From the IMG/VR virus record IMGVR_UViG_3300032087_005431, positions 1-30,952 of that record: a stretch of DNA of 30,952 nucleotides, one strand, 5' to 3'. The DNA is from a virus. The notes below the pieces were generated by a model. It made no database searches. It worked only from the letters and a program-made list of their open reading frames with translations, and was not told the origin of the DNA. The translations under genes and the position numbers were made by a program. The first letter of the stretch is position 1. Each line of letters begins with the position of its first letter. Positions 1-30,243 of the stretch are shown piece by piece.

Positions 1-29
1 TAATAATATCCTTTTTTGCAGGATTTCAT
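1..29 (-). CDS. Possible 5' end of terminase large subunit (partial, frame uncertain)
   Basis: Gene 17, the packaging ATPase-nuclease, follows gene 16 in T4-like phages, so its start is expected here. The only ATG after the gp16 stop lies at 27-29 and gives just nine codons (MKSCKKGYY) before the window ends. A second open reading in another frame begins at a TTG within the gp16 stop region and reads as an amphipathic helix-like stretch (SSTINEILQKRILL), which looks more protein-like. Nothing diagnostic of a terminase (Walker A, nuclease acidic residues) is inside the window, so the identity rests only on gene order, and the start cannot be settled. Confidence 0.25.
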
Positions 30-37
30 TTATAGTA

Positions 38-469: not shown

Positions 470-474
470 ACGAA

Positions 475-2675: not shown

Positions 2676-2677
2676 AA

Positions 2678-3550: not shown

Positions 3551-3556
3551 AGTTTA

Positions 3557-3898: not shown

Positions 3899-3923
3899 TT
3901 AAGTTTATTTTAAGTTCTCTATC

Positions 3924-3931
3924 TATTTATG
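3924..3931 (-). promoter_or_regulatory. Late promoter CATAAATA upstream of the 113-aa gene
   Basis: The minus strand reads CATAAATA, matching the T4-type late promoter motif as NATAAATA, the form described for T4-like cyanophages. It ends 25 bases before the ATG at 3898. The upstream 56-aa gene's stop codon TAA (3927-3929) lies inside the motif, so one sequence serves both purposes. Confidence 0.6.
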
Positions 3932-4097
3932 GATTTATTAATGATAATACTTCTTGCTGTTTAAGATATAGTTTATAGTAAGATTTTGCAATATTTTTTA
4001 AAGTTTCCACACACTCTATATTATCAATTTCACTGGATACTTTATGGTACTCAAACTCTTTCGATAATTTTTCAAGTTTTATTTTGTCTGGATTCAT
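3927..4097 (-). CDS. Conserved cyanophage small helical protein, 56 aa
   Basis: A 56-codon frame begins MNPDKIKLEKLSKEFEYHK and ends QQEVLSLINP. It is predicted to be almost entirely alpha-helical, with charged heptads and a C-terminal KSYYKLYLKQQE segment. I recall similar short proteins beginning MNPDR/K in T4-like cyanophages at this place, but no function is known. The start is well supported: AAAGGAG lies eight bases upstream of the ATG. The gene overlaps the end of the 72-aa gene by 26 bases and its stop codon lies inside the late promoter at 3924-3931. Possibly a small assembly or host-interaction factor; that is a guess. Confidence 0.75.
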   Translation of the reverse strand: MNPDKIKLEKLSKEFEYHKVSSEIDNIECVETLKNIAKSYYKLYLKQQEVLSLINP

Positions 4098-4290
4098 TAA
4101 TTAACTCCTTTAATAGTGATTTAATTTCACTTACATCATCTTTTAATTGTTCTACCTCTTTTTTCATTTTCATTCTATTTGATGAACTATTAACATATTG
4201 TTGATATCCAGAGGTATCTTTATTGATTATTGCGCCAGTATTCATATCCCTATAAAGATATGAGGACCCCTCAACTCTTACTAATTTCAT
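4072..4290 (-). CDS. Conserved cyanophage protein with C-terminal coiled coil, 72 aa
   Basis: The product has two parts. Residues 1-35 hold MKLVRVEGSSYLYRDMNTGAI, a small beta-rich segment of the type L-[YH]-R-D-x-x-T-G-A-[IV]-[IV]. Residues 40-68 are a charged heptad helix (EVEQLKDDVSEIKSLLKEL) that should form a coiled coil. I recall homologues in T4-like cyanophages, all of unknown function. The ATG overlaps the stop of the DUF4815 gene as TAATG, so translation is probably coupled to that very long gene. It could be a small structural partner or chaperone of the preceding fibre/baseplate protein, but this is inferred only from coupling and the coiled coil. Confidence 0.75.
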   Translation of the reverse strand: MKLVRVEGSSYLYRDMNTGAIINKDTSGYQQYVNSSSNRMKMKKEVEQLKDDVSEIKSLLKELINESRQNKT

Positions 4291-11834: not shown

Positions 11835-13421
11835 TTAAAATTCTAGAATAATTTTTACATCTTCTTTTTGTCTAGAGTTCCTTGTTACCAAGGGTCTGTT
11901 ATCAATAAATATAATATCTCCAGATGTTTTATTTATTTCAGGACTTGCTAAACCATTATTAATATTCACATCCAAATCTATTGTTTTATTATTTACTGTA
12001 ACCGAAGATCCTGTAAATGTGGTATCTATTGATGCACTCCATCCACTATCACCAGTTAATGCGTTAGAACCATTAAAGTCCAAAGTTGCAGATACTGCCG
12101 TTGTAGATACATTAATGTGATCTTTATGATAATCTGAACTTGTTGGGTGATAGTATAGTGATCTGTCTTTATAATACTTTAAAATTTTGGTTTCAGCATT
12201 GTAAGAACCAACATAACCCTTTGCTATTCCTCCAGTAACATTTTGTTCAAATTTCTCTCCAATAACTGGACTTCCATCCATATTTGTCACTCTTATTGAG
12301 TAAAGTCCGGAAAATGTTGATGCTATATAATTGGTAGATGAAGAAAATTCTGTTGGATTTTTTAACACTCCAATTTGGGCAAATTTCGTATCAGTTGGAA
12401 AATCTTGAACAGAATCATCAAATCTGTTATATATCAAAACTTTGTCTGCACCCAATTCAGCATATAAATCATATCCATGCCCTTTGGATGGAGGTATTAT
12501 TGGAATAAGTTCTGCTGGAGGATTTTGTTCTGGATAACTAGATAGGGTTTGTAAAGGTCCAAGATCTACAATGCCATATGTATATCCTGATCCTCCAGAA
12601 GTCACCGAAGTTTTAACAATTTTCCCATCATTATCTGTCTCAATATAAACTTTTGCTCCAGTTCCATCACCATAAATATCAACTTCTCCAGATGTGTATC
12701 CAGAATTGCCACCACTTTCAATATATACAAACTTAATTTGATTGTTATTTGTGGAACTATCACCATTATTCCTAACATTTGATATTTGAGTATTTGATGA
12801 GGTACTCCAATTGTTTGGTAAAGGTATAAATTCTGTAGAATCAAATTTTATAATGTCGGATGGAGGAACTGTGAATAGATATTTCCAAAGATATCCATCG
12901 GATCCATCACCTGCAAAAGAAGGTTCTAAATCTGTAAAAGTTGGTTCAGATCTTGATGTGTTTCCTGATGGACTATCACCATTAGACCCATTACTTATAC
13001 AAATATACACTTGATACTGACTATTAATTACATAATAATCACCATCATATAATCTAGATCTGTCTGTTTCGGAAGTTGTGTTGTTTATGCTGTAATCATG
13101 TCTATACATATCATATGCAACACCATTCTTCCACTCAACTTTACGAATACATCTCCTAACATTTTCCGGAATTACTCTTTTTCCAAATATTATAGTATCC
13201 TTATAGTGATTAAGATAATGGAAATTATCTGTTGGATCTGGAACTATAGAGTTCGCAGTAGATCCATCGTCCCAATTCAATACTCTACCAAATTTGGTAC
13301 TAGATCCACCAGGATTAGATAATCCGAAAAAAACATAGTAATAATCAGAATTATCTGAAATTGCACTTATAAAACTATTTGTGTTTAAAATTCTAAATTG
13401 ATCTGTAACAAAAGCAGACAT
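11835..13421 (-). CDS. 8: Baseplate wedge subunit gp8, expanded
   Basis: gp8 is a wedge component that joins gp7, gp6 and gp10 in the T4 baseplate. The 528-residue product begins MSAFVTDQFRILNTNSFI and YYYVFFGLSNP, comparable to the T4 start (VTSKFRTEKMLNF, then ITFGRSEPW). It continues with VIPENVRRCIRKVEWKNG, where T4 has the VIPRRDW segment, and DGSDGYLWKYLFTVPPSD, where T4 has DGYVWEYLFEIPPD. That conserved block near residues 175-192 is the strongest evidence. It is longer than T4 gp8 (334 aa); part of the excess is two G-S-G-Y repeats near residues 231-290. A GGIAKGYVGSYNAETKILKY module lies near 395-415. The late promoter TATAAATA lies 18 bases upstream, so gp8 can be expressed independently of the long upstream message. 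No good Shine-Dalgarno is seen. Confidence 0.9.
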   Translation of the reverse strand: MSAFVTDQFRILNTNSFISAISDNSDYYYVFFGLSNPGGSSTKFGRVLNWDDGSTANSIVPDPTDNFHYLNHYKDTIIFGKRVIPENVRRCIRKVEWKNGVAYDMYRHDYSINNTTSETDRSRLYDGDYYVINSQYQVYICISNGSNGDSPSGNTSRSEPTFTDLEPSFAGDGSDGYLWKYLFTVPPSDIIKFDSTEFIPLPNNWSTSSNTQISNVRNNGDSSTNNNQIKFVYIESGGNSGYTSGEVDIYGDGTGAKVYIETDNDGKIVKTSVTSGGSGYTYGIVDLGPLQTLSSYPEQNPPAELIPIIPPSKGHGYDLYAELGADKVLIYNRFDDSVQDFPTDTKFAQIGVLKNPTEFSSSTNYIASTFSGLYSIRVTNMDGSPVIGEKFEQNVTGGIAKGYVGSYNAETKILKYYKDRSLYYHPTSSDYHKDHINVSTTAVSATLDFNGSNALTGDSGWSASIDTTFTGSSVTVNNKTIDLDVNINNGLASPEINKTSGDIIFIDNRPLVTRNSRQKEDVKIILEF

Positions 13422-13457: not shown

Positions 13458-16400
13458 TCAAGTTGATTTTTTAGTTAGGGCACCAGTATTTCTGAGTCCA
13501 GAAGTTGTTCCAGATCTTCTTATTGTGGGATAACTAGAAAGACCTGAAACAGTGTATGAGGTTACTGCCATAGAAACTTTTCCAGAAGCTGCTCTACTAA
13601 ATCCAGATATTTTGCCCCAAGAAAATCTTCCCACAGGATTTTCTAATGTACCAGTAGTACCAATTCCAACTTGTCCTGATATATCAGTATCACTTGCTAT
13701 ATTGCAGGTGATTATACCAGTGGAATCTGATCCATCTATATCAACAAATTGAACTTTATAGACATTATCTAAGAACTGAGTGGATATTCCTATAGTATCA
13801 TTATTATTTGTATCAATTGATGTAACTCCTGTTCCTATTGTAGTATTAAAAATATAAATTGGAATTCCTTGAGAAATAGAACTGTAATCTGCTTCAGATG
13901 TTTTTAGTGTGAATGATAATGCTAGATCTGCCCCATTTATTCCATCGGTAGTCCCAATTCCAACAACAGCACCGGAAAGACCTACCACTGTCGTAACTTT
14001 TGATATTTCTTCAAACTCAGTATCAGGACTTGAAATTACTACTTGAGGAATACTTGTATCTGTGTATCCAGATCCAGGTCTAACTACAGTAATATCGGAA
14101 ACAGAACCATTTTCAATCGTAACCGTAGCGGTTGCTGTACTTCCTATACCAACATCTCCTACTGATAAATCTCCAAATTTAAAGGTAGTTGTAACTGTAG
14201 TTGTTATACCTATAATTGGTTTGGTGATAGTAACTATTCCTGAAGAAGAAACATGTTGTACAGTTGTTCCTTCAGATACTATACTTCTAATATCATTTCC
14301 AGTTCCATTAACACCATCAAAATCTTTAGTTACGATCGAGGTAACAGCTGCGCCAGAAACAATATTAGATATATCAGAAACTATTATATGAGTTGTATCT
14401 ACACCAACTGTTCCCACTCTTGATACTGAATAACTAGGAGTTGACCCTATTCCAACAGTTCCCCATAATCTGTTTTCACCAATTCCAATTATTGGATTGG
14501 ATATTTTTATTACTGGTGTACTAGAATATCCAAATCCACTTTCATCAATATTAAATGAAGATATAGTTCCGATGGAAGAAACATTTGCAGTAGCAATCGC
14601 TATTTTATTTTTGCTTTGATCAGGAATAATGAAACAATCAATAGTTTTTAAATCAATCAATTTTTCTTCATAATCAAACAATTCTATATTGTCAACATAT
14701 ATTTCAGTAGCATTATCGTCAAAATCAGAAATTACTTTAGCAATAGGATAAACTTGGCCCTCGATAGAATCTCTAGATTTGGAATATACTACCCCATTAA
14801 TAAAGAAATCTTGTTTTTGTTTTATCCAATTTACGGGGCGATTTTTTTCTTGATCAATACCTTCTCCTGCATATAGATCTGTATTTAGAGTATCTACAGA
14901 ATTTATTGAAAATACTGTTCTTTGTTTTTGTTCTATATCAGTATTATCAAATCTCTTTACTTGTAAAGTATCACCGACTTGTATTGTCTCTATAATATCT
15001 GTTTGAAAAGAATCTTCTCCCCTGCTTCCAACATAAAAATATATTTCAATTTCATCTTCCTTTTTAGGTGGCTCTAAAAATGTGACAACAGCGCCTCCAT
15101 TAAAATCATAAGATAATTCAGGTTCTTGGAGAATACCATTAATAAACACAACTAAGAGACTATTAAAATCAATAAATGAAGAGTCCACATCGTTCTTATC
15201 TTTTTGGAAAGATAATAACTCACCTTCATAAAATAATGGGAATGCACTTCTTATACCATTTTGATAACTTTTTATACTATCAATTAAATTCATTTCTCCA
15301 AGTTGCCAAGAAGCAACACTATCTTGGTAAGTATCAAGAACAAATAATTTAAATTCTTCTAGAGGTTCCGTCAATTCTTTTGCGGTTACCAATCCAACGG
15401 CAGTGATAACATCACCTCGTTTGAATCCATATCCTTGCCTTGCAATTGAAAATGATTTTATTCCAAACAAAGTTGATCCAATGCCAATATTTCCACCAGA
15501 ATACCCATCTGTTCCTATAGCTGCTGGACCTACCTCAAGATCTACAAGAAGATTCACACCCGTATCTGTGGTAGTCCCTATACCCAATCTGGATATTCCA
15601 GTAACTGGCAAATTGCTGTATGATGGTTGTGGTAAATTTAAAACTGGAGTAACATATCCGGAACCTGGTTGATCTATATTAAATCCTAATGTTCCGCCAG
15701 CACCAACTGTAATACCAATCTCTGCTCCAGAACCAAGAGTTCCAGAACCAATATCACTTACAATTCCAACTATAGGTCCAGATGTATAACCAGAACCAAC
15801 AGTTAAATTTTGATACCAAGAAAATACCGTTCCATATCCGACATAATTATGTCTTAGCGTACTAACACCAACATTTACAGTAACCGTGCTTTTTCCTAAT
15901 CCAATAATATTTTTTGGATTTTCGTCGGATGGAAAATATACTACTGTTGTTGGGTCAGAAGAAGAATCACATGTAAATCCTAAACCAACTAGTTTCAAGA
16001 AATTAATATTTCTATTAACAATATTATTAGTTACATCATCTTCAGTTGATACTATTTCTAATATTCCTCTTATATTATCATATTTTGCAGTAACGATACC
16101 AATAGTTTGATTTGGTGCAGTTGATGCAATAGAGACCACATCAATAATCTCACCACTTTCATTTGTATCCAATCTTACAACTGCAGGAACTAATGGAGCA
16201 TATCCCATTCCGGAACTAGATCCTAAAGATACGATTAATCCACCTCTCGGTAATTGGTTTTGATTTACATCATCTTCGGATAACTCTAAAGGAAGATTAT
16301 CCTCATCTCTTATCCCAGTAAATACTACGTTAGTTTTGTTGGACGTACTGACAATTCTAAAGTTAGAATTTGTAGAATTTTGAGTATCTGGAACTTGGAA

Positions 16401-19400
16401 TATTCCATTAATAAATAGGAATCCATTTCCAGAAGTAGTGCCAAAACCTACTGTACTTAAACCAGATTGAGTTAGTTCAAATGTGGTGTTAATTCCATCA
16501 AATTCATTAGAAAAATCATCAAAAATTTCATTTGTAGAATAATTTTTTCTTAAGAAAGTTCTTCCAGAGAATTCTGCTCTGGCTCTCAAAAGATTACTTT
16601 CATCTCTAGTATTTAAGTCGCCAATGTTTCCTCTTGGGGAATTAACGAAATGAATTTCATCTCCAACAATATTGTATGAACCACGGTAAACATCAACATT
16701 AGTACCATCAGTATGCTCTGATGCAGCAGATCCAACAAAACCTCTTTTCACTTCTACAATATTTAAATCTCCCGAAGTAAATTGTATTGGACCATAAGAA
16801 GATGTTCCTATTCCAACATTTACCACCTTCATATATTCATCATCAATTTTTAAGATATCTTCCAATCGTATCGACGATATTCCAGATAATGCAAAAAATG
16901 TGTCTGCTATACCAATGTTTCCTTGATTATGTCCAGTCAATTGGAAATTGAGATTTGTATCTAATAGTGGATACTGGACAATGTCATTGACCATGATTAA
17001 TGTTTTTTCATTTTTCTTATACATTTCAAGTTGATGTGCGTTACCCTCTCCAAGATAAGAATCAAAAGTTATTGCGATACCATTATATGCATTTTCTTCT
17101 GATTCTGCTAATTGGAAAGAGTTATTATTAACTTTTATTGCATAAACCTCTGTAGACAATCCAACATTTGAACTTGTGTGCATAGCACTAATACCATATC
17201 CAACAAAAGTTGCATTTGGAGTATAAATTAACCTTTCACCAGTGCTAAAGAAATGATTTGAAATATTAAAGGTTCCGGTTGATGGAGTTAATATATTATC
17301 ATCATAAGGATTAAACGTTTTTGCATAAATTGGGATACCATTATATTTTAATTTAAAATTGGTTCTATCTCTATTGTCAGAATTAATACTAAAATATTTT
17401 GATACTATTTGATTTTCTTGGAGGTTTTCTACACTCAATTGGTTTGGTACATTACTTTCATCTAAAAATGAGTAAAATGCATAATTTAAATGAGTTATTG
17501 ATACATCTGATCCTGAATACTCTGAAGATTTTTTGAATTTCAATTCAAGATTGTCCCCATTTATATCAGACTCAAAGTAACCCACAGAATTGCCTATAGA
17601 AACTAATGGTCCTTCAGTAGTATAAGAATTTTCTATATCACATAAGGTAACAATCTGATGTAATGATATTGTTGATCCTAAACTTACTCTAGCATATGTT
17701 TTTACAGAAGAAAATAAATTTTTATTAAAAGATATTAAAGTTTTAGATGCAGAACTAGTTCCAGTGTTGGTATGATCACCAACAATTTTTATAGTTCTTA
17801 CACTCTCATTATCTTGAAGATTTGATTTGAAGTAATATGTAGATATTCCTATAGATGTATCACCAAATCCATAAGTTTTTGTTCTCACAGATATGTTAGA
17901 AGTTTCATTGGGTTCAAATTGCAGAATTATATTACCACCAGATAGATTAGAGGTAAATATTCCTACAGATTCATCAGAATTTTGTTGTTTATTTGAATTA
18001 AACTCAAATTGTGATGTTTGTACGTCATTTCCATCATAAAGAGTAACGATCTCATGGTATGATGCTATATTTTTAACCCTATCATATACATGGGCTTCTG
18101 TTAAAAATGCCGTATATGTAACAGAATCCAATTCCTCAACATTTACTATATTCGACGATGTTGTATTAGTGTTTTTTGCAAATATACTAATTGGACCAAC
18201 ATCAAAAGAACCAGAATTTACATTGTAAGATTCATAGTTCGTTTTTAAAAGTTTTACATCATAATCAACATCAAAAACATCATTAGGATAAAAATATAAA
18301 TCAATGTTACCATTATTATTTGCAATTGGTTCTACATAACCATAATGAGAAGGAACTATGTCAGAAGATACCCACTCATTTAAATCTTTATTTGAATATG
18401 AAGACTTATCAAGATATGAGATAAAATTAATACCATCATATAAAACTATCATTTCTACAAATTGTAGATGATTATATCCATTAAGAATGCTAATTGGAGA
18501 ACTTTTTATTTGAATTAAAAATTTATAATAGTTTTTTCTTGCAGATAATGAATCTATCACCAAAGAATCATCTTGATATTCATCATCACTACTGGAAAAT
18601 AATCCACTTATATTATCAATTTTTAATACTCTATTAGTCTTAGCAATAAAAGAATCTGTTAATTCGACATTTTTAAATAATAAAGATTGAGATCTGTTGT
18701 TTATAACATCAAAATCCTTAACAAAATCAAAGTTTTTAATTATATCAGATCGAGATTGAGATATGAATGATTGTGATCTAGTAACAATAGAATCTAAAGC
18801 AGTTTTAGAACCAGAAATATTTGTAGTTATGCCTGTAATTTGAGTGTCTGAGAAATTTTTAGTTCCTAGAGGGTGAATTATTGAATTTACTGATGATTCT
18901 ATTTCTGACCAAAGTTTTGGACTTTTTATTGTATATGCCATGTTCTGATAATAATCATTATCGGAAATAAATTGCACATCAGAATTTAACTTTCCGGACT
19001 CACTAGACCATCCCATTTCTTTGACAACTGATCCACTAATAGTGTATTCTCCATCCAATGAAAGTGTTTCATATATTGTACTTTTAATATTTGTTTCTTT
19101 GCCAATAATTACATCATCTTTATTGAGAACGTAATTTCCTAAAAGTTTTACTTTATTTGATGTTGATCTAACAACTGTTAAATCTGTTTCAAAATAAGTA
19201 CCATCTTTATTATCTAATATAACTCTCTCGCCAATTTTCATAACACCAGGTTCTTGTATTACTTCAAAAGTTGGATAAGCATCTTCTCTAATTGCAGTTG
19301 CAAAAGTATCAGTTTGAAAAGTTATCGCAATTCCTGGAGAACCCTTTGATTTTGTTGCTGGCAATCTAAATACCACTGTTCCTGGATTTGAACCTGAAGT

Positions 19401-22400
19401 ATAACTAATTACCTCATAAAATTCGTATCCATGAACTTCAGAATTGAATCCAATTCCACTATTGGGAACAATATCAATATTTTCTAAAAATACTTTATCT
19501 CCAGATTTAAATGGATCAGTACTAAAACCTAAAATTGGTGTTGCCAAATTGCATGTTAAAGAATTATCAGATTCGGTAACTATTTTATCTATTCTTATTC
19601 CGTTAGAATTATCTATAGACTTTACAGTTACTTTTGTTTTTGGTAATCCGGATGGAGTAATTAATATATTTACATTTGATATGTTGCCAGAAGCACCACC
19701 TAAATCTGCAACAATCAATCCACCATGATTTATTTTTTCTCCAGTTTCGGTATTCACTAACACTAAATTTGGTGCAGAAGGGTATCCTTTTCCTCTATTA
19801 ATAACATTTATATTTGACAGTATATTATTATTTGTAACCGTAATATTTTGTGGAAAACTTAAAGTGGGTCTGATGGTATTATCTATAGAATATTCAAATC
19901 CACTATTTGTATCTTCTTTTTCTAGTATTCTTCCTATATCTTTAGAGAGTAATTCTATATCTAAACCAACACCAGATGTAGATCCAATACTGGTAAGATA
20001 TGGTTTCGAATAATATCGTTTTTGTTGATCTAAAATTTGTATTTTATTAACACTACCCTTGGCATTCTTCGATGTTGTGGTGTATTTTAAAGTATCACAT
20101 TCTTCTTGAGTATATGATGATCTTTCTGGAAGTTCATTGAGATATATTTCAAAAGTAGTATCACCTACACCCGTAACACGGTATTTTGAATTATACTTGC
20201 TATCTACAAAAACAATTTTCGCATTGTTTTCTGATAGAGGTATTGTATTGATATTTTTATTAGTAGAATCGACCAATGAATAATATAAAACACTTGGATT
20301 ATTATCTCTCGATTCTAAAGTATAGGTAGTAAATCCAACATTAGTAAAGTTAAATGTACTAGAACCTGCTCCAGATATAAATTCATTTTGTAAATTTTTA
20401 TCGTAGTATAACTTCAATTTATATCCTTGTATTGAAGAATCTGAAAGATTTAAAACAAGATTATTATTTGAAGTTACATCAATACTCTTATTAATTAATG
20501 TTAGGTAATCTAATGATCCTAAGGAGTTTTGATAATACCTTATTAAGATTGGTGGTTTGCTAGTAGAATCGAGATGTGTGAGTGCTAGATTAATATTATT
20601 TTCATCAACTCGATAAACATAGAATTGTTTACTTGTAAACTCCAGATAGGAAGATCCATCCAAATACTCAAGTGGAGTAGACTCAACACTATTATAACGT
20701 ACCCTATCCCCAGTTTTAAATGGATGTCCTGTTATAGTAAGTTGTAATGGGTATCCGGATCCTCCAGATATGCTTTCAATATAAGTAGGATGTATTCCAA
20801 TAAATCCTTCATCATGCTTTATAAATTTTACATACTCTGTAGTTCCAATACCAACAGAAAGATTTGGTTTCACCTGTAGATCAATGACATCATTATTTTT
20901 CAAGTAATGATCTGTAGATACTGATACCTTAGCAGTGTTTTGTTTTACAACACAGGTCTCCTCATCCACAATCGGTTCAATTGAATATTCAAAATTGTTC
21001 CCTGCAGTCATTTTATTGGTAAAAAATGCACCACTGGATGAAGTTACGAATCCAACATTAGTTGTAATACCAATAAGATCTTCAGTTTTTTTGATTATGT
21101 AAACTTCTGTAGATAACCCTGCCGTTGGGAACAGAGAAAAATCTCTTTCAAATTCTGTAAGTGAAAAATTATCAGATGAGGCATTTGGTCTTGATATTGT
21201 AACTTTTTGTCCAGTGATAAGATTGTGATTTGGTAAGTATATTGATTGTGTTGGAATATTTCGTGTAAACTGATTTGTTCCAACACTAAATTTTATCTCT
21301 GTACTTATTCCTACAGTATCACCAACACCTACAGATTCTAAGGGATTGAAATATCTTTTATATTTTGGAAGTTTAATACCATCATTTAAAATATCATCAA
21401 GTTTAATATAGTGTGGTAAAAAACTAACATTCGAATATTCACTTATAAAACCAACTACATTAGTTTTCTTAACTCTCAACACATTTTCATTTCTAAAAAC
21501 ATTTAAAACTGAAAAATAATGATCCGTGTTACCAGAATTACTATTATGTGTAATTTTAACTGAACTTCCTATTGATACAATATTAGGCAAATTTTCCACT
21601 TGTATATCAGTAACAATTCCAGATACTGCAGAATGATACCTACCGGAAGCTTCTAAATCATCAAATTCTGGAACTTCATTTAATATTCGCGAACCAAATC
21701 TATCAACAGAAACTGTTTTATTCCCTTCAAGATTTGCAAAATTAGTTGATACGCCAGTTATGTCAACTTTTGTGTTATTTTTTATGTCATGAGAAGGTAA
21801 AATATACAATATACTTCCAGAGTTACCTACAGAATATATCTTAACATTTTCATATTTTTTTGTTGTATTTACTATTGAAGTTACTTTTTTCCCTTCTAAA
21901 GAAGTGACACGTACTGTTGACTTAGATTTTGATTCATCTTCAATGTTTATTGTATCACCTACATTATAATCTTTACCAGCATTAATTATTTCTACACTAG
22001 TAACAATTCCAGAACTTATTTTAGAAACTTTTGAAGTTTGCTTTTCATTTGACAGATTAATTGGAAAAAAGTCATATGAAGCAAATTCATCATTGGTTTT
22101 GTATGGAGAAGTATTTCTTTTTAAAGATGTATTATTGAAATCTAATGATTGATCTAAAATTTTGTTGATATTTTCCTCTATTAATTTGGATTTATACTTA
22201 GGTCCTATAAAATATGGAAATCTTCCAACTTTATTACCTTTATTTTCTCTAATTGTTGCAAAATAAGCATAAACTCCATTAGGATACTCTGGAGTTACGC
22301 ACCACCTACCATTATATTCGTCTAAATCTCCAGAATTATTAAATTTATAATCTTCTATAAAAAATGAAGAGTTAGAATCATTATTGACAGAAAACTTATT

Positions 22401-25400
22401 GTCTGTTGGTCTATTAATGACATTGGAAATATCTTTGACATATCCAGAACTTAACTCTTGTACGCTTCCACTTTTCTCTGGGTTGGAGTATCCATATGGA
22501 CCATAAATTGGATTTCCATCATAAGCCCAACCAATTATTGGAGAGTGTTGTAATCCACTATCAGAAAAATAATTTATAAGTTTTTGAGAATATGAATTTA
22601 CAACATATTGCAACTTATTCTGACTATTTTTATATAAAATTTCATTTGCAGGATCTCTATAATCAGAATATTCTGTCCCATAAGAGTATGCTGAATCGAC
22701 AGTTAAATCTCTAACTCTACACTTAGATACTAACCCCTGTCCTGTAAAAATAGGTTCTATTTTTATATCATTATAAGAATACCCAGATCCCTGATTAATT
22801 ACTTTTGCTGATACTATTTTTCCATTTGAAATTGATACTCTAACTACAGCACCTATACCTTTTGAACTAATAATTTTTATTTCTGGAACAGAATTGTAAT
22901 CATAACCACCATAAGTTACAATAACATTCGTTATTTTTCCATCCGTAATTATTGGTTTCAAAGAGGCTTCTTTTCCTTGAATTACCGAAATATTTGGAGA
23001 TACTTCTAAATTTAATATAGAAGATCCATAATCAACCCCCTCCTCATACAAATATATTTGATCTATACTTCCTTTTACTACAGGAGTACAATTAATTGTA
23101 TTCAATCCAGTTGTTCCGGAAATAGTATATTCAACATTTACCTTTATGTCTGGATAATTAAAATATTGATATCCTGTACCTGAAGATGCTATAGAAACAT
23201 ATTTTTTTCTATTAAACAGTGTTACGTCTGTACCTCCAATACCAGCATCACACAATCTAAAAGAATTTTTGTCATTAGTTAAAATATAATATTGTTTATC
23301 TGAAGAAAGACCAGATATTGAAGTAGTTTGATAGTTATATGTTACCAATTCTCCATCAGAAAATCCGTGATTTTTGAAAGTTATTAGGTCATTTACTGTT
23401 GATATTCCAGATTGTTTGACTATTAGTTTTCTATTCGAATAACCCTCTCCAGGATTCTCTACATTAATGGAGGATATTGTTTTAACTGGTAGTGTCTTAA
23501 ACTTATGCAATCCAAAAAGTCCCTCAGTAGAAAATCCTACCGTGTTTATTCCACTCGTATAAGAATCTAAGTCTGGATATAATCTTACAGTTTTGGAATT
23601 TACTACTTCAACATAATATGAAGAATTGTTTGCCAAATAAGAAGTTGCTCTATTAAAACCTTTGAATGTGGAAAGACCTATAGATGGATTATTTGGATTA
23701 TTTTTATCATAAATTATTTTTTCTCCATCTAAGAAATTATGATCTGTAATGAATGTGAGTGTATCTAAATCATTATCAATCCCACCATTATCGCTCAATA
23801 ATTTCGCATTAAAAAATACTTCTCTTGAAAATAAATTTATTTGTGGACTTAATACTGCATTTTTTCCATTACCTCCAGTTATAGTAATCGAAATTGGTTC
23901 TTCAACTTCAAAATTAAATGGATCAACATGAACTTTTTCAACTGATCCTGTGAGTACTGGTTGTAGTTTTGCATTACCATCTACACTCAATTTTGGTGGA
24001 TTTATTACATCATATCCAAAACCACCATTCAATACATCAACTGACTTTAATGGTCCGTAGTAGATTTTATCATTTGATTTTGGACTTAATATTTCTACAC
24101 CATTAACTAAAATTCCAACTGTTCCAAAATTAACATCTTGATTATTTTCATTATATTCTGTAGGATAGGTTATTTTTTTTAGTATTTTTGCTGGGAATAT
24201 CTTGTTCTCATCAGTTTTTTGATTGTACAATGTAAAATTGTGTACCCCGGTTGGGATATCTTTTGATTTAAAATAAATTTGGTCATCAGATTGTAATGAA
24301 GAAATTGTATAGTATAATTTTATAAAAAACTCACTATCTTTTCTTCTAGTAGTTACATAATATACACCTTCTTCAAGACCTCCTATTCCTTCATCTCCGG
24401 TATATGAATAATATACTTTTTGACCGTCTAAAAATGGTGGTAATGTGCCATTTTTAGAAGACATTTTAATTTCAGTATAAGAATCCTGTATCGGATCAAA
24501 AGTAGAATCTTCTATTCCAGATGCACTATAAACAGCAATATCAGAATTAATTAAGTATGATGGTAATGAATTTGAAGCGATGTAAAAATTTGTATCTTCT
24601 TCATCATAAAAATTAATGATATTTGGAAATAATTTATCATATTTTAATTCTACGACAGAACTATTCGCATATTCTAATTTTCTTCTTATATCATACTCAT
24701 AATTAATTTTTCTTTTAAAAGTAAAGTTTCCATTTATAGTAGTTGTATTTAATGATTCTTTAGATATAGTAACAATTCCACCATTTCCATTTTGAGAAAT
24801 TGCAACAACTGATGCCCCCAAATCTTCAGTTAAGGTATTATTATCAGAATCAAATGTAACAAGATCTCCGATATCAATACCTGTTGTATCTGATAGTAAG
24901 ATAGTTCTGGCAGTTCCTACTAGTGTACCAGAATGGACATCTATTGATTCTAAATTCAATGAATTTGAGTTTTGATTTACATCACCAAAAGATCTATTAA
25001 AAGATATTGTACTTTCTGTTATTTCATTTACAATAGCAGTATTAAATTCTGAAGATGGTATTTCCGTATTTCTTCTTAAAAATTCTACTGTGTCGCCTAC
25101 TTTTAGAACATTAGAATTTATTGTAGTATCAATTTGTGCATCAGATCCTTTAAAATTTGTAATTCTAATTGGAATTCTTACGCTAGTATTGTAAATTAAT
25201 GAATCTGCAATTTTATTTTCACCTTTTTTGAAATTTTTCCCTAAAGAAGATACATTAACATTATCTCCAATATCACTAACATAATTTATGGTCTCATTTG
25301 TATAGTTTAAAATTAATTTATTTGCAGAACCCAGTACTCTAAATTCTATTTTTTTAGTAATATCTCCATTTTCATATGAATAATAAGTGTCATCAGAGTG

Positions 25401-26546
25401 AATATTTGATGCTTTAGGAATATCAAGATTTATATAAGTGTCATTTTCTGTATAGCACCCAAAGAATTGATTTACACTTTTTTCGGTGTAAAATATTTTA
25501 TTTTGATTATAATATAATATTCCAGAATCACCAAATCCGATAGTTGAATCTACAGTTAAAACATTTGAATTGTCTGAAGATTTGATATTTTCTACTAATT
25601 TTGTTGATGGTGTAACACCTAGTTTGTCTTCATTGCCAATTGTAATTTCATCATAACCAATATATAGAAATAGTTTATAGAATTTTTTACCAAATCTAAC
25701 TATAGATTCAACTTCTGATACTGAGGCAAATATATTTTCATCATTAGTTTTAGTTATTTGCTGCCCTCTTATGTTTCCAGGATTACCATTAGCAGTTAGT
25801 AACTCTACAAGTACTTCTCTTCTCCTCATAAAATCGGAGTGAGATGATTTTATTACATATTCTTCTAAATCAATGACTTTTGGATCTACTCCAAAAAGGG
25901 CATTGAATAAAATTCTTATAGATTCTCTATTTCCTTTTGTTTGATATAATGATGTAGTACTTTTTAAAAAATTGTTTATGTTTAAATTTGCATCTAAATC
26001 CTTTGATTCTAACTCAACAAGTAAAGAATTTTTTATTTTCTTATAAAATTCGTGTAAAAATAAGACACTAAGATTCAATACTTCATCACCACTCTTATGA
26101 GAGGAAATATTTGTAGATTTAAATGTTAAATTTTTACCATATTTGTCTATTCCACTAAAATTACGCACACAATCATTAAAACTAGTGCTAGTTTTTGATT
26201 TATATGTGATAATTTCGTCATTTATTTGAATTAATCCATACTCTTTTGGAAATCCCTTTGTACTGCTGACAAAAATTTGACTTGTAATCCCATTTTCAAC
26301 ATCAGTGCTCACATTTTGAGTAAGATTTGTTGTATTATTTAAAATTTCTGGTGTAAAATTGTCTAATTTTAAGTAATAAGGTAAATTTTCGACAATATCA
26401 ATATTTCCACCTTGCGATTCTTGAGAAATATAGTACTGTTTTAAAAATTCTAAGAATTTTGGACTCTCAGAAACTACAAATTCAGGTATTTGATTGTTTA
26501 AAATGTCCTGAATCTGAACTTTATTTTCAAAACTTGTTTGTATCAT
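13458..26546 (-). CDS. Giant baseplate wedge protein at the gp7 position, with YHYH domain, 4362 aa
   Basis: This single frame lies between gp6 and gp8, where T4 has gene 7 (1032 aa), so it is probably the gp7 counterpart. The N-terminal 270 residues are helical and non-repetitive (PEFVVSESPKFLEFLKQYY; a helix ending in RESIRILFNALFGVDP) and probably hold the wedge interface. Other visible parts: two STxGF...I-N-x-[EK]-I-x-Y modules (about 86-155 and 329-369); G-x-G-Y repeats near 840, 1120-1265, 1520, 2250, 3580-3640, 4000 and 4160; a YHYH-type domain near 1335-1430 (GWAYDGNPIYGPYGY, then GRWCVTPEYPNGVYAYF); three similar modules of about 130 residues near 2650-3040; an RGFVGSAASEHTDGT module near 3265-3290; and two F-I-N-G-I-[FL]-Q-x-P modules near 3374 and 3797. 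[VI]GIG[ST]T motifs are dense in the last third. AAGGA lies seven bases before the ATG, one base after the gp6 stop. Confidence 0.85.
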   Translation of the reverse strand: MIQTSFENKVQIQDILNNQIPEFVVSESPKFLEFLKQYYISQESQGGNIDIVENLPYYLKLDNFTPEILNNTTNLTQNVSTDVENGITSQIFVSSTKGFPKEYGLIQINDEIITYKSKTSTSFNDCVRNFSGIDKYGKNLTFKSTNISSHKSGDEVLNLSVLFLHEFYKKIKNSLLVELESKDLDANLNINNFLKSTTSLYQTKGNRESIRILFNALFGVDPKVIDLEEYVIKSSHSDFMRRREVLVELLTANGNPGNIRGQQITKTNDENIFASVSEVESIVRFGKKFYKLFLYIGYDEITIGNEDKLGVTPSTKLVENIKSSDNSNVLTVDSTIGFGDSGILYYNQNKIFYTEKSVNQFFGCYTENDTYINLDIPKASNIHSDDTYYSYENGDITKKIEFRVLGSANKLILNYTNETINYVSDIGDNVNVSSLGKNFKKGENKIADSLIYNTSVRIPIRITNFKGSDAQIDTTINSNVLKVGDTVEFLRRNTEIPSSEFNTAIVNEITESTISFNRSFGDVNQNSNSLNLESIDVHSGTLVGTARTILLSDTTGIDIGDLVTFDSDNNTLTEDLGASVVAISQNGNGGIVTISKESLNTTTINGNFTFKRKINYEYDIRRKLEYANSSVVELKYDKLFPNIINFYDEEDTNFYIASNSLPSYLINSDIAVYSASGIEDSTFDPIQDSYTEIKMSSKNGTLPPFLDGQKVYYSYTGDEGIGGLEEGVYYVTTRRKDSEFFIKLYYTISSLQSDDQIYFKSKDIPTGVHNFTLYNQKTDENKIFPAKILKKITYPTEYNENNQDVNFGTVGILVNGVEILSPKSNDKIYYGPLKSVDVLNGGFGYDVINPPKLSVDGNAKLQPVLTGSVEKVHVDPFNFEVEEPISITITGGNGKNAVLSPQINLFSREVFFNAKLLSDNGGIDNDLDTLTFITDHNFLDGEKIIYDKNNPNNPSIGLSTFKGFNRATSYLANNSSYYVEVVNSKTVRLYPDLDSYTSGINTVGFSTEGLFGLHKFKTLPVKTISSINVENPGEGYSNRKLIVKQSGISTVNDLITFKNHGFSDGELVTYNYQTTSISGLSSDKQYYILTNDKNSFRLCDAGIGGTDVTLFNRKKYVSIASSGTGYQYFNYPDIKVNVEYTISGTTGLNTINCTPVVKGSIDQIYLYEEGVDYGSSILNLEVSPNISVIQGKEASLKPIITDGKITNVIVTYGGYDYNSVPEIKIISSKGIGAVVRVSISNGKIVSAKVINQGSGYSYNDIKIEPIFTGQGLVSKCRVRDLTVDSAYSYGTEYSDYRDPANEILYKNSQNKLQYVVNSYSQKLINYFSDSGLQHSPIIGWAYDGNPIYGPYGYSNPEKSGSVQELSSGYVKDISNVINRPTDNKFSVNNDSNSSFFIEDYKFNNSGDLDEYNGRWCVTPEYPNGVYAYFATIRENKGNKVGRFPYFIGPKYKSKLIEENINKILDQSLDFNNTSLKRNTSPYKTNDEFASYDFFPINLSNEKQTSKVSKISSGIVTSVEIINAGKDYNVGDTINIEDESKSKSTVRVTSLEGKKVTSIVNTTKKYENVKIYSVGNSGSILYILPSHDIKNNTKVDITGVSTNFANLEGNKTVSVDRFGSRILNEVPEFDDLEASGRYHSAVSGIVTDIQVENLPNIVSIGSSVKITHNSNSGNTDHYFSVLNVFRNENVLRVKKTNVVGFISEYSNVSFLPHYIKLDDILNDGIKLPKYKRYFNPLESVGVGDTVGISTEIKFSVGTNQFTRNIPTQSIYLPNHNLITGQKVTISRPNASSDNFSLTEFERDFSLFPTAGLSTEVYIIKKTEDLIGITTNVGFVTSSSGAFFTNKMTAGNNFEYSIEPIVDEETCVVKQNTAKVSVSTDHYLKNNDVIDLQVKPNLSVGIGTTEYVKFIKHDEGFIGIHPTYIESISGGSGYPLQLTITGHPFKTGDRVRYNSVESTPLEYLDGSSYLEFTSKQFYVYRVDENNINLALTHLDSTSKPPILIRYYQNSLGSLDYLTLINKSIDVTSNNNLVLNLSDSSIQGYKLKLYYDKNLQNEFISGAGSSTFNFTNVGFTTYTLESRDNNPSVLYYSLVDSTNKNINTIPLSENNAKIVFVDSKYNSKYRVTGVGDTTFEIYLNELPERSSYTQEECDTLKYTTTSKNAKGSVNKIQILDQQKRYYSKPYLTSIGSTSGVGLDIELLSKDIGRILEKEDTNSGFEYSIDNTIRPTLSFPQNITVTNNNILSNINVINRGKGYPSAPNLVLVNTETGEKINHGGLIVADLGGASGNISNVNILITPSGLPKTKVTVKSIDNSNGIRIDKIVTESDNSLTCNLATPILGFSTDPFKSGDKVFLENIDIVPNSGIGFNSEVHGYEFYEVISYTSGSNPGTVVFRLPATKSKGSPGIAITFQTDTFATAIREDAYPTFEVIQEPGVMKIGERVILDNKDGTYFETDLTVVRSTSNKVKLLGNYVLNKDDVIIGKETNIKSTIYETLSLDGEYTISGSVVKEMGWSSESGKLNSDVQFISDNDYYQNMAYTIKSPKLWSEIESSVNSIIHPLGTKNFSDTQITGITTNISGSKTALDSIVTRSQSFISQSRSDIIKNFDFVKDFDVINNRSQSLLFKNVELTDSFIAKTNRVLKIDNISGLFSSSDDEYQDDSLVIDSLSARKNYYKFLIQIKSSPISILNGYNHLQFVEMIVLYDGINFISYLDKSSYSNKDLNEWVSSDIVPSHYGYVEPIANNNGNIDLYFYPNDVFDVDYDVKLLKTNYESYNVNSGSFDVGPISIFAKNTNTTSSNIVNVEELDSVTYTAFLTEAHVYDRVKNIASYHEIVTLYDGNDVQTSQFEFNSNKQQNSDESVGIFTSNLSGGNIILQFEPNETSNISVRTKTYGFGDTSIGISTYYFKSNLQDNESVRTIKIVGDHTNTGTSSASKTLISFNKNLFSSVKTYARVSLGSTISLHQIVTLCDIENSYTTEGPLVSIGNSVGYFESDINGDNLELKFKKSSEYSGSDVSITHLNYAFYSFLDESNVPNQLSVENLQENQIVSKYFSINSDNRDRTNFKLKYNGIPIYAKTFNPYDDNILTPSTGTFNISNHFFSTGERLIYTPNATFVGYGISAMHTSSNVGLSTEVYAIKVNNNSFQLAESEENAYNGIAITFDSYLGEGNAHQLEMYKKNEKTLIMVNDIVQYPLLDTNLNFQLTGHNQGNIGIADTFFALSGISSIRLEDILKIDDEYMKVVNVGIGTSSYGPIQFTSGDLNIVEVKRGFVGSAASEHTDGTNVDVYRGSYNIVGDEIHFVNSPRGNIGDLNTRDESNLLRARAEFSGRTFLRKNYSTNEIFDDFSNEFDGINTTFELTQSGLSTVGFGTTSGNGFLFINGIFQVPDTQNSTNSNFRIVSTSNKTNVVFTGIRDEDNLPLELSEDDVNQNQLPRGGLIVSLGSSSGMGYAPLVPAVVRLDTNESGEIIDVVSIASTAPNQTIGIVTAKYDNIRGILEIVSTEDDVTNNIVNRNINFLKLVGLGFTCDSSSDPTTVVYFPSDENPKNIIGLGKSTVTVNVGVSTLRHNYVGYGTVFSWYQNLTVGSGYTSGPIVGIVSDIGSGTLGSGAEIGITVGAGGTLGFNIDQPGSGYVTPVLNLPQPSYSNLPVTGISRLGIGTTTDTGVNLLVDLEVGPAAIGTDGYSGGNIGIGSTLFGIKSFSIARQGYGFKRGDVITAVGLVTAKELTEPLEEFKLFVLDTYQDSVASWQLGEMNLIDSIKSYQNGIRSAFPLFYEGELLSFQKDKNDVDSSFIDFNSLLVVFINGILQEPELSYDFNGGAVVTFLEPPKKEDEIEIYFYVGSRGEDSFQTDIIETIQVGDTLQVKRFDNTDIEQKQRTVFSINSVDTLNTDLYAGEGIDQEKNRPVNWIKQKQDFFINGVVYSKSRDSIEGQVYPIAKVISDFDDNATEIYVDNIELFDYEEKLIDLKTIDCFIIPDQSKNKIAIATANVSSIGTISSFNIDESGFGYSSTPVIKISNPIIGIGENRLWGTVGIGSTPSYSVSRVGTVGVDTTHIIVSDISNIVSGAAVTSIVTKDFDGVNGTGNDIRSIVSEGTTVQHVSSSGIVTITKPIIGITTTVTTTFKFGDLSVGDVGIGSTATATVTIENGSVSDITVVRPGSGYTDTSIPQVVISSPDTEFEEISKVTTVVGLSGAVVGIGTTDGINGADLALSFTLKTSEADYSSISQGIPIYIFNTTIGTGVTSIDTNNNDTIGISTQFLDNVYKVQFVDIDGSDSTGIITCNIASDTDISGQVGIGTTGTLENPVGRFSWGKISGFSRAASGKVSMAVTSYTVSGLSSYPTIRRSGTTSGLRNTGALTKKST
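22260..22545 (-). other. YHYH-type domain inside the 4362-aa protein
   Basis: Within the giant frame, residues about 1335-1430 carry GWAYDGNPIYGPYGY followed, after a linker, by SGDLDEYNGRWCVTPEYPNG and VYAYF. The G-[WY]-x-x-D-G-x-P-I-Y-G-P core and the later Y-x-Y-F are hallmarks of the YHYH family, found in secreted bacterial proteins and in several cyanophage structural proteins. Its biochemical role is not established. Here it is embedded between beta-repeat segments, which suggests an exposed domain. Confidence 0.75.
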
Positions 26547-26547
26547 C

Positions 26548-28458
26548 TTAATTCCTTATTAAACTTCCATTAGAATAACTTGATTTATAATAATCAGAGG
26601 TAGAAAATAGCACACCAGATGTATTTTCACCCGAAGAAATAACATCCTTAATCATATTTATTTTACTTTTTGAGATATCTAATGACAGATACAAGTCCTT
26701 CAGTCCAATAATATCATTAGATTCTGGAAAAGCTTGTATTTCGATAATATTATTTGGTTTTTCTGTTGAAATTATATTAATTGGATTGATCCTTATTTCT
26801 CCCGTTTCATAATCTACGATGCCTGCAGATTTTAAAATTGTCAAGGGAGGAGTTATTTGAGATGGTTTGACAACTGCTATAACTCCAGTCTTTTTATCTG
26901 GATTTGGAATGTCTGTAAAATAAACAAACTCATTTGGGTTAAGGTCTGTTGCAAAGACTTTAAATCCTGTCGATTTTATATTTTTTCCTTCAGGATTGAC
27001 ATGAAATTTATTTCCAAAACAAAGTTCATATTCTGTAAATTGTTCTACAACTACATTCAGATTTCTTCTAATTATAACCTTTGTGATATTAGAGGTAATT
27101 GATCTATCAACTTCATCAATTATATTGACTGCTTTACTATACTTAAATCTTCCACCATACTTTGTAGAGTATAAAGAATTTCCAAATGTAGTTAGAGCAC
27201 TTTGTATATTTGATTTAATTGTGAGTGGAGTTATTGATTTTGAAGTATCATAATATACAGATGAATCTAATTCAATATACAATACTTTAACATCTACCAA
27301 TCTTTGATTGATACCAATAACTGAGTATTTTTTAAGTTCTGATAATATTTTTTGCTTATCAAAATCAGAAATATATAATCCATTTTTTGGTTTAATTGAT
27401 ATGATTACAGTTCCATATTCTGGAGGATTTAATTCTTCACCACCAACAACTGATACAACTTCAGCATTTGGATAAATTTTTGTTTTGATAATTGCCTCAT
27501 AATCATTTGACGTTACTGCACGGTTCTGTGACGAAAATAATCTTGGAGAATAATATTTAATGGAATCTACACGTTCAATTTCAGATCCATTTCTTGATGG
27601 CGATACTACAGTAATTGTAACTTCATTTGTTGGTGCTATTGATGCGCCATTACTATTTGTTAAAGATCCGGAAAAAGAAAACTCTCTTGATCCATTTCCC
27701 TCAAAACCATCTGTAACGATATATTCAACTAATATTTGAGATCCAGTTTCTAATTTTTTACCAAATATTCCATCTCCAAATAATAATTCATATCTCTCAT
27801 CCTTAACTTCTTGAATTAAGAAAATCTCAGAGTCTTTATTGACATTGATGATATTATCCACTAAATTATATTTTCTACCCTTTCCAGTAGATTCTGGTGA
27901 CTTTACATAGACTCTTATCGTACTTGTATCAACATTTGGATTTTGTAGTATAAATCTTTGATCCAAAGATGCATCTACATTGAATGTTTTATTGAGATAT
28001 CTTCCTTGATATACTGTTATATTTGAAAATTCTGCAATTCCATTATTTACATTAGAGACTATTTCTTCACTGATTGAAAAAATATATGATGTATTATCTA
28101 TAGATCCAACACAAACTAGTTCGGGTTCAAGTGTTACTGTTGGTGTATCAGAATCTGTTTGAATTTGAAATGATATAATTGCTTCTGCTGCTTTTTTTGA
28201 TCTTGGAACATACCCAATGTTCCTTGCAAGAGAAACAACATTTTCTCTTAGTGTAGCAGATTCCAAAAATACTTCATTAACTGCCAAATTCGAGTTAAAT
28301 GCATTGATATAGGTATTATATGCTAATGTATCAATTAAGATTGAAAAGTTTGATCCTTCAAAATCATAATCGGTAAAGTTTGAATTTGCTCTCAGATAAT
28401 CCTTAATAGAAGTTTTTATCTGATTAAAATCTAAATTTGCGTAATTTGTAAAAGGCAT
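26548..28458 (-). CDS. 6: Baseplate wedge subunit gp6 (baseplate J-like)
   Basis: gp6 forms the inner iris ring of the baseplate together with gp25 and gp53. The 636-residue product starts MPFTNYANLDFNQIKTSIKDYLRANSNF, the standard start for T4-like gp6. It continues with FSILIDTLAYNTYINAFNSNLAVNE, then LESATLRENVVSLARNIGYVPRSKKAA, the most conserved block of the family and shared with the baseplate J proteins. Further support is LLFGDGIFGKKLETGSQI (about 228-245) and SPRLFSSQNRAVTSNDYEAII (about 308-328), the J-like domain core. Length agrees with T4 gp6 (660 aa). One base separates its ATG from the gp25 stop. An AGAGG lies further upstream than usual, so coupling to gp25 translation is likely. 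Confidence 0.95.
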   Translation of the reverse strand: MPFTNYANLDFNQIKTSIKDYLRANSNFTDYDFEGSNFSILIDTLAYNTYINAFNSNLAVNEVFLESATLRENVVSLARNIGYVPRSKKAAEAIISFQIQTDSDTPTVTLEPELVCVGSIDNTSYIFSISEEIVSNVNNGIAEFSNITVYQGRYLNKTFNVDASLDQRFILQNPNVDTSTIRVYVKSPESTGKGRKYNLVDNIINVNKDSEIFLIQEVKDERYELLFGDGIFGKKLETGSQILVEYIVTDGFEGNGSREFSFSGSLTNSNGASIAPTNEVTITVVSPSRNGSEIERVDSIKYYSPRLFSSQNRAVTSNDYEAIIKTKIYPNAEVVSVVGGEELNPPEYGTVIISIKPKNGLYISDFDKQKILSELKKYSVIGINQRLVDVKVLYIELDSSVYYDTSKSITPLTIKSNIQSALTTFGNSLYSTKYGGRFKYSKAVNIIDEVDRSITSNITKVIIRRNLNVVVEQFTEYELCFGNKFHVNPEGKNIKSTGFKVFATDLNPNEFVYFTDIPNPDKKTGVIAVVKPSQITPPLTILKSAGIVDYETGEIRINPINIISTEKPNNIIEIQAFPESNDIIGLKDLYLSLDISKSKINMIKDVISSGENTSGVLFSTSDYYKSSYSNGSLIRN

Positions 28459-28459
28459 T

Positions 28460-28861
28460 TTATCTCGTTGCCTCTAGAATAAATGTAAACTCTTGTGTTG
28501 GAAAGTCTTGCCCTATAATATCAAATACTACGGTGACTTCAAGAGAATTATTATCAAATTCTGGATTGACACTCACATTCAAATTTTCCACTCTTGGTTC
28601 AAAATTTTGGACCGATCTTTTAATTTGATCTTCAATTATACTTATAGATGCAAAATCTATATTATCAAATAATGATGATGTCACATCACTACCAAATGTT
28701 GAATTGAAAAATTTTTCATTTGGTATTGTTTGAACAATATTTTGAATCGATCTTATAATTGCTCTTTCATTTTTTAAGACCGCAAGATCTTTTGTTATCG
28801 GATGTGGTTCAAATGATAAACTTATATCCTTAAATGATCTTGATATCCTCTTGATTGGCAT
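28460..28861 (-). CDS. 25: Baseplate wedge subunit gp25
   Basis: gp25 is the small wedge protein with a lysozyme-like name but a purely structural role. It binds the gp6 core bundle near the tail tube. The 133-residue product closely matches the family length (T4: 132 aa). Residues 10-45 show the key pattern FKDISLSFEPHPITKDLAVLKNERAI. This is followed by IRSIQNIVQTIPNEKFFNSTFGSDVTSSLF, with the conserved P-x-E-[KR]-x-F and F-G-S segments. Strands near 90-130 end with EFTFILEATR. It begins the gp25-gp6-gp7 wedge operon and has its own NATAAATA late promoter 24 bases upstream. I see no Shine-Dalgarno; a 14-base palindrome occupies the leader instead. Confidence 0.95.
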   Translation of the reverse strand: MPIKRISRSFKDISLSFEPHPITKDLAVLKNERAIIRSIQNIVQTIPNEKFFNSTFGSDVTSSLFDNIDFASISIIEDQIKRSVQNFEPRVENLNVSVNPEFDNNSLEVTVVFDIIGQDFPTQEFTFILEATR

Positions 28862-29484: not shown

Positions 29485-30243
29485 TCAGATTATCCGAGTC
29501 TTTTCGTGACCAACTCTGACGCGAGGATCACACCAAATCTCATAACCTGCTGAAATTGCATCGAGACAAAACGAAACATCCTCACCACACATGTCTTGTA
29601 CTTCACCAGACTCAAATTCTTGCATCTTTGGTGCAAACCATGGATACTTCATCTCAGAATTCTCAAAAACTCCTTTCTTAATTAGTAACCACCCGAATCC
29701 TGTGTAATCAACGGTAAATGGTTTACGACGCTTTGAAATACTTTCAATCGTTTCGTGATTCATTACACCACCATTATTGCGGAAGTCTTCCTCCTCTAAC
29801 CAGTGTGCTACGGAAGTTGTTTGACCATCCTCTGTTGCATACCAACCAGCAGCAATATCTTTGTCCATTAAAAGTACTTGCCAAAATTTTTGTGTGTTGA
29901 ACACAATGTCACTATCAATCCATAACTGATAATCGTAGTTTAACTTTCCATCCCATGGTAGTTGATCAGGACCTCGAAGTACATTTGCACCTAAACACTT
30001 ACATCGTGCAAAGTTTACCATGGAACTGTAGTCCTGTGAAATCTGAATACTTGCACCTGCTTGTACAAGATCAAAACACAATTGTACAAAATTCTTCAAG
30101 TACGTATATGAAACTCCTCTTCCAGGTAGACAGAATACTACTGTCTTTCCTCGAATCATTTGTTTTGCCAAATCATAATCCCACTCCTCTGTAGATTTTT
30201 TAGGTGCGGGTGCCTTTGCTTTTACAGTGAATCCTTTTGCCAT
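29485..30243 (-). CDS. GT-A type glycosyltransferase-like protein, 252 aa
   Basis: The product has the layout of a GT-A (family 2-like) glycosyltransferase. After a Lys/Ala/Pro-rich tail (residues 1-20) there is a first strand and loop VVFCLPGRGVSYTY (35-48), then a segment NFARCKCLGANVLRG (77-91). The YQLWIDSDIVF block (105-115) contains the D-x-D-like DSD at 110-112, expected to bind a metal and a nucleotide sugar. Later come VDYTGFGWLLIKK (178-190), GEDVSFC (220-226), where the acidic pair is typical of the acceptor or base site, and H246 near the end as a possible third metal ligand. Related proteins occur in many cyanophages. The donor and acceptor are unknown; virion proteins or host surface sugars are possible. 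A consensus sigma70 promoter lies directly upstream. Confidence 0.75.
   Translation of the reverse strand: MAKGFTVKAKAPAPKKSTEEWDYDLAKQMIRGKTVVFCLPGRGVSYTYLKNFVQLCFDLVQAGASIQISQDYSSMVNFARCKCLGANVLRGPDQLPWDGKLNYDYQLWIDSDIVFNTQKFWQVLLMDKDIAAGWYATEDGQTTSVAHWLEEEDFRNNGGVMNHETIESISKRRKPFTVDYTGFGWLLIKKGVFENSEMKYPWFAPKMQEFESGEVQDMCGEDVSFCLDAISAGYEIWCDPRVRVGHEKTRII

Follow-up and report, generated by a model that had tools for sequence, protein, structure and literature searches.

A giant gp7 with a proposed split wedge core in an uncultured marine T4-like cyanomyophage

Cyanomyophages are among the ocean's commonest viruses. The virus contig analyzed here (the window, 30,952 bases) carries a single unbroken open reading frame of 4,362 codons, running from ATG to stop on the minus strand, with a predicted product of 479.9 kDa. 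Its size and position raise the question of which baseplate protein it encodes, and how a chain of this length could belong to a wedge.

The giant frame and its relatives

Searches with PHROGs and Pfam gave the order gp25-gp6-giant frame-gp8, with gp25 and gp6 upstream and gp8 downstream, and the gene of the giant frame lies directly between gp6 and gp8, the T4-type gp7 position (Table 1). One uninterrupted frame of 4362 residues at this place had been described in a sequence-only reading of the window, and the ORF and its neighbors confirm it, on the minus strand. Beyond gp8 come the VrlC/DUF4815 gene and then the neck and tail genes gp13, gp14 and gp15 and the small terminase. Just upstream of gp25, positions 29485-30243 code for a glycosyltransferase-like protein (weak match to phrog_34859, strong match to phrog_1574, a family of unknown function) in a stretch richer in G+C than its surroundings (0.39 vs about 0.30).

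An assembly artefact as the origin of the frame is excluded by six metagenome relatives (L006, L008, L010, L012, L013 and L017), in which the frame stays open for 3,737-3,781 codons, to the end of the available stretch, and by a colinear protein of 3,895 aa in the isolate S-SRM01. Conservation is highest at codon position 2 and lowest at position 3 in what we define below as core, insertion and tail. As the pattern is alike in all three, protein-coding selection acts on the protein over its whole length.

Table 1. Location of the genes in the window and of the predicted parts of the giant gp7
Feature	Residues	Positions	Strand	Evidence
VrlC/DUF4815 protein, 2,513 aa, past gp8		4290-11831		VrlC-type profile match (phrog_358 / DUF4815)
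gp8, baseplate wedge		11835..13421	-	Pfam Phage-Gp8 E 6e-9; phrog_438 E 2e-149
Giant gp7, baseplate wedge protein, 4362 aa		13458..26546	-	ORF; phrog_2885; tblastn with N-terminus
Core segment A	14-61	26364..26507	-	HMM E 4e-11
Module M2a, between A and B	about 65-160	26067..26354	-	HMM 89-147 E 2e-26
Core segment B	181-244	25815..26006	-	HMM without cyanophages or T4, E 4e-5
Core barrel, broken by module M2b (311-387)	about 233-412	25311..25850	-	VIA-align, hhalign
Insertion arm	about 413-2518	18993..25310	-	Segment map; repeat analysis
YHYH domain (PF14240)	1321-1434	22245..22586	-	Pfam 79 bits, E 5e-22
Core segment C	2519-2575	18822..18992	-	HMM without cyanophages, E 3e-4
C-terminal tail	2576-4362	13461..18821	-	Repeat analysis; S-SSM7 gp7b match
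gp6, baseplate wedge		26548..28458	-	phrog_219 647 bits
gp25, baseplate wedge / sheath initiator		28460..28861	-	phrog_261 E 1e-51

The N-terminus of the giant protein matched 462 phage records by tblastn, nearly all of them Synechococcus or Prochlorococcus myoviruses, and many of these records are annotated as 'baseplate wedge initiator' or gp7. The match to phrog_2885, 'baseplate wedge subunit', reached 2,894 bits. Three other families, phrog_4406, phrog_701 and phrog_19630, also match the giant gp7 strongly and, although filed under 'head and packaging', seem to consist of wedge proteins. By gp7 and gp6, the closest isolates are the cyanomyophages S-SRM01, S-SKS1 and P-SSM2, and the gp7 proteins of S-SRM01, P-SSM2 and ACG-2014f are colinear with that of the window. 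In S-SKS1 (20001-33000) the gp7 frame ends in a stop at locus 22122, and only pieces beyond it carry an annotation, which may reflect a true break in the isolate or a sequencing error.

The gene after gp6 varies widely in length, from 284 aa in Salmonella phage SE14, 335 in Vibrio phage D532 and 874 in pelagiphage Mosig, through 881 in Rhizobium phage IC12, 1,032 in T4 and 1,937 in S-CREM2, to 3,494 in S-CAM4, 3,895 in S-SRM01, 4,225 in ACG-2014f and 4,446 in P-HM1, the largest being those of P-SSM2 (5,195), Syn9 (6,076) and S-SZBM1 (6,619). The giant size, taken in the sequence-only reading as unusual for a wedge core protein, is so in comparison with T4, whereas among marine cyanomyophages it is the norm, and the window protein is a new, uncultured member of the giant gp7 of the Kyanoviridae.

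Identity as gp7 and the split core

With hhalign, the profile built on residues 1-460 aligned with the T4 gp7 family (window 190-293 with T4 723-812, E 6e-6), and the pelagiphage family aligned with the N-terminal window profile over window residues 11-311 (E 3e-19). An HMM of segment B built without T4, from pelagiphage, Ackermannvirus-type and cyanophage proteins, matched T4 gp7 at 733-758 (E 2e-9). When the AF2 model of window residues 1-500 was used in a structure search, gp7 of Klebsiella phage KP1 and gp7 of T4 were the best two of 350,542 PDB chains, both identified as gp7 from entry look-up and chain length, and the same two proteins were likewise the top chains for the AF2 model of the pelagiphage gp7 (874 aa). 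VIA-align superposed window 236-408 on T4 gp7 761-842 (5hx2_A; Z 7.0, rmsd 2.7, 81 aa), where a Z below 8 is no proof by itself and the Foldseek E of about 1e-3 is a modest fold match. On a second T4 chain (5iv5_BJ), the core barrel fell on gp7 760-846, and VIA-align and hhalign independently gave the same barrel register. The AF2 models themselves are weak (mean pLDDT 56 for window 1-500, from 12 sequences, and 47 for the pelagiphage gp7, from 42), too poor to reveal a packing of segments A, B and C against one another.

A phmmer search against PDB sequences gave no meaningful match for the window, pelagiphage or SE14 proteins; therefore, the homology to T4 is visible only by profiles or folds. 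The SE14 profile compared by hhalign directly with T4 and with the window found the correct stretches at weak scores, and the pelagiphage family was for this reason required as a bridge. Considering that position, profile and fold agree, it is highly probable that the giant frame encodes the gp7 of a T4-like marine cyanomyophage and that window residues 14-61, 181-412 and 2519-2575 together make up its conserved, split wedge core. The identity first claimed from gene position alone has thus gained further support from hhalign, the T4-free HMM and the PDB matches.

The most distant piece of this core is segment C, about 2,100 residues downstream of the N-terminal part. With cyanophages left out of its training, the segment C HMM scored E 3e-4 in the window against 0.5 or worse for reversed decoys. 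Seven other giants scored between E 1e-18 and 5e-5; individual values were 1e-18 for S-CAM4, 1.5e-13 for Syn9, 9e-12 for S-CREM2 and 4e-8 for P-HM1. Segment C was located in every gp7 examined. In the T4 family it matches around 865-892 (T4 numbering) with E 0.0007-0.013 and in the same order, the match to T4 gp7 alone being weak (E 0.004). The earlier view that only the N-terminal ~270 residues form a unique core is therefore wrong, as it misses this second core segment. A regular-expression scan overlooked segment C in several proteins, and HMMs were used in its place; for proteins in the HMM training sets the E-values are circular and serve only to locate the segments. In the held-out gp7 of S-SZBM1 (6,619 aa), segment A was found at 11-57, B at 691-749 (E 2e-22) and C at 3531-3582 (E 1e-20).

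The segment A HMM was trained on pelagiphage and Ackermannvirus-type gp7 only. The segment is expected to be a helix-turn-helix joining the gp6/gp7 core bundle, and in the low-confidence AF2 model this region has helices at 12-44. The HMM of segment A had no match in T4 gp7, where hhalign gave only a weak stretch (T4 645-676, E 0.11).

The protein after gp6 in SE14 (QEI23407, 2848-3702, annotated as 'hypothetical protein') looks like a minimal gp7. Its segment A is helical ('PLFIEFMDTFFNWL'), and segments B ('IYKIRGTKKAIELFF') and C ('DDYYYDEYTYVI ... HFHPAGF') are adjacent. The spacing between B and C is accordingly about 0 in SE14, as in D532, and amounts to 107 residues in T4, 364 in Mosig, 419 in IC12, 1,554 in S-CAM4, 1,633 in S-CREM2, 2,138-2,340 in S-SRM01, ACG-2014f, S-SSM7, P-SSM2, the window and P-HM1, and 2,711 in Syn9. 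The tail past C ranges from 0-12 residues (SE14, S-CREM2) up to 2,667 (P-SSM2), and in T4 and IC12 long stretches sit ahead of the core instead. Conservation is higher in the core than in the appendages (codon position 2 identity to L006 of 0.84 and 0.88 vs 0.69 and 0.71).

We found no description of a split gp7 core in a search of part of the literature, largely outside subscription journals. The giant gp7 as an object is largely known; the split core is a new, testable correction of its anatomy.

Insertion arm, tail and rival readings

The modular mass of the protein forms two appendages, an insertion of ~2,100 residues anchored at both ends and a tail of ~1,800 residues. The insertion contains recurring beta modules at 679-1285, 1734-2023 and 2164-2328 together with a YHYH domain, and the tail contains a three-copy module at 2671-3009, further modules and a conserved C-terminal end. 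Copies were detected by profile self-comparison, used in place of a regex-seeded module search that gave few of them. At E<1e-3 the self-comparison gave 56 off-diagonal hits that cover 1,823 residues of gp7, whereas reversed tiles gave 1; this bears out the recurring beta modules described in the sequence-only reading. One family lies near 690-770, 920-1000, 1046-1130, 1771-1867, 1927-2014 and 3086-3184, and a GGSGY family near 831-904, 1125-1265, 2164-2309, 3589-3653 and 4108-4186; a third has three members (2671-2765, 2786-2890 and 2919-3009), and the M2 modules form a pair (69-126 and 311-364). M2a is confidently folded in the AF2 model (block pLDDT up to 88) and resembles residues 479-559 of a JBD30 baseplate chain (Z 10.8, rmsd 1.9). 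The very long arm proposed for this protein has to be qualified accordingly: most of it is an insertion held at both ends and not free, and a free end is possible only for residues 2576-4362.

Related modules occur elsewhere in the window. The neck protein gp14 (1275-2675) ends, over residues 200-388, in four GGSGY beta modules like those of gp7, and this module is thus common to neck and baseplate proteins of one virus. The VrlC-like protein (4290-11831) has one M2-type module at residues 2124-2175, similar to gp7 89-147 and 328-367.

The gp7 of S-SSM7 is divided, gp7a corresponding to window residues 9-3245 and a separate gp7b to 3249-4344. In that genome (19986-39080), a 340-aa gene separates the two, and the division falls at about window residue 3247. 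A separate protein is likewise encoded in Syn9, where it follows a gp10-like gene.

Peptides of giant homologs have been recovered from virions: 71 peptides covering 13.5% of the 6,619 aa of S-SZBM1 gp7 in CsCl-purified particles (PMC9146016), and 91 unique peptides covering 27.2% of the 1,937 aa of S-CREM2 gp7 in purified particles (PMC10665884). From these values we computed about 893 covered residues in S-SZBM1 and about 527 in S-CREM2, where the core has about 435. Because this coverage exceeds what the core could supply, appendage residues are present in the particles of both phages. The same figures bear on a reading in which proteolysis during assembly leaves just the core of gp7 in the wedge, with the appendages discarded or working as separate proteins. 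The C-terminal part being a separate gene in S-SSM7, the covalent link is dispensable, and the published peptides, which come from the homologs S-SZBM1 and S-CREM2, leave room for partial cleavage. However, virion coverage extends beyond the core in both (PMC10665884, PMC9146016), and a cut inside the insertion would part segments A and B from C; we consider such processing unlikely.

Less probable still is an enzymatic role of the insertion, in which its YHYH domain would open the cell envelope as a metal-dependent hydrolase. A histidine triad and a tail-associated, metal-dependent hydrolase activity have been predicted for the YHYH domain (PMC7824862), the match to PF14240 in the window is well above the cut-off (79 bits vs 25), and the domain is found in the insertion of all ten giant gp7 examined (nine and S-SZBM1). 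However, the YHYH motif itself is absent from the window domain, where residues 1426-1429 read YAYF, and Y-(A/C)-Y-F replaces it in 10/10 giants, both name-giving histidines being absent. A structural or ligand-binding role for the domain would fit this sequence pattern better than a hydrolase.

It has been stated that cyano- and pelagimyophages lack gp7 and have VrlC in its place (PMC7029224), which would make the giant an unrelated structural or fiber protein located after gp6 by chance; the annotation of the Syn9 copy as 'putative fiber' and the filing of three related PHROGs families under 'head and packaging' point the same way, but this is very improbable given the sequence and fold match to T4 gp7, the fact that VrlC has its own gene, located downstream of gp8, in these genomes, and the presence of both VrlC and the 284-aa gp7-type protein in Salmonella phage SE14. 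The VrlC profile (phrog_358 / DUF4815) had no match in the gp7 frame of the window and matches the separate gene at 4290-11831. Since a gp7-type core and VrlC co-occur in the same genomes, the view of a baseplate lacking gp7 is unsupported.

A proposed wedge and comparison with known systems

Published structures show wedge cores of the (gp6)2-gp7 type with a core bundle and a trifurcation; in Vibrio phage XM1 gp17 and in TssG two peripheral loops of the gp7 homolog hold receptor-binding proteins (PMC10457771, PMC6300606). Judging from the T4, XM1 and T6SS structures, segment A, segment B with the barrel, and segment C of the split gp7 would pack with two gp6 chains and gp25. The insertion arm would leave the wedge at the core barrel and re-enter it at segment C, as an enlarged version of a peripheral loop (XM1 gp17 80-106 and 201-242; TssG loops 1 and 2), and the tail would form a second lobe. 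Six large lobes at the periphery of the baseplate could then carry the tail-fiber attachment parts or take their place. Most likely, we infer, the appendages hold or extend receptor-binding parts. By analogy with XM1 and TssG, we tentatively suggest, at somewhat less than even chances, that the insertion enlarges the very loops that hold receptor-binding proteins and so gives rise to such lobes. A broader version, which we regard as rather doubtful, is that gp7 of marine T4-like phages in general is a split-core protein in which a receptor-handling loop of a small ancestral gp7 became one arm of several thousand residues per wedge, held at both ends, the six arms forming a large peripheral layer in the role of peripheral baseplate and fiber-attachment proteins of the T4 gp10-gp12 type.

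Placing the split gp7 core would correct the gp7-less cyanomyophage baseplate of one comparative study, and would explain why gp7 has been filed under such unrelated names as wedge initiator, fiber and head protein. It would also point structural biologists to the distant pieces that should be modeled jointly, and suggests that a small core protein can grow in several ways, ahead of the core in T4, and inside and after it in the window gp7.

The Kyanoviridae giants are the closest known system. Those with a tail (3,494-6,619 aa) share with the window gp7 the gene position, the A-B-insert-C-tail order and near full-length colinearity, at about 32-47% identity over most of the length, and differ from it in module number and tail length. 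T4 gp7 (PDB 5IV5, 5HX2) is alike in the order of segments B and C, in the register of the core barrel and in its gene lying between gp6 and gp8. However, of its 1,032 aa about 640 precede the core, 107 separate B from C and 140 follow C, whereas the window gp7 has nothing ahead of the core, about 2,275 residues between B and C and 1,787 after C. The 284-aa protein of SE14 (Ackermannviridae) has A, B and C as in the window, without insertion or tail. The small gp7 homologs XM1 gp17 (242 aa) and TssG of the T6SS (about 366 aa), compared here by their literature description, likewise form a 2:1 heterotrimer with the gp6/TssF homolog, but where their loops amount to tens of residues, the window gp7 has thousands at this place.
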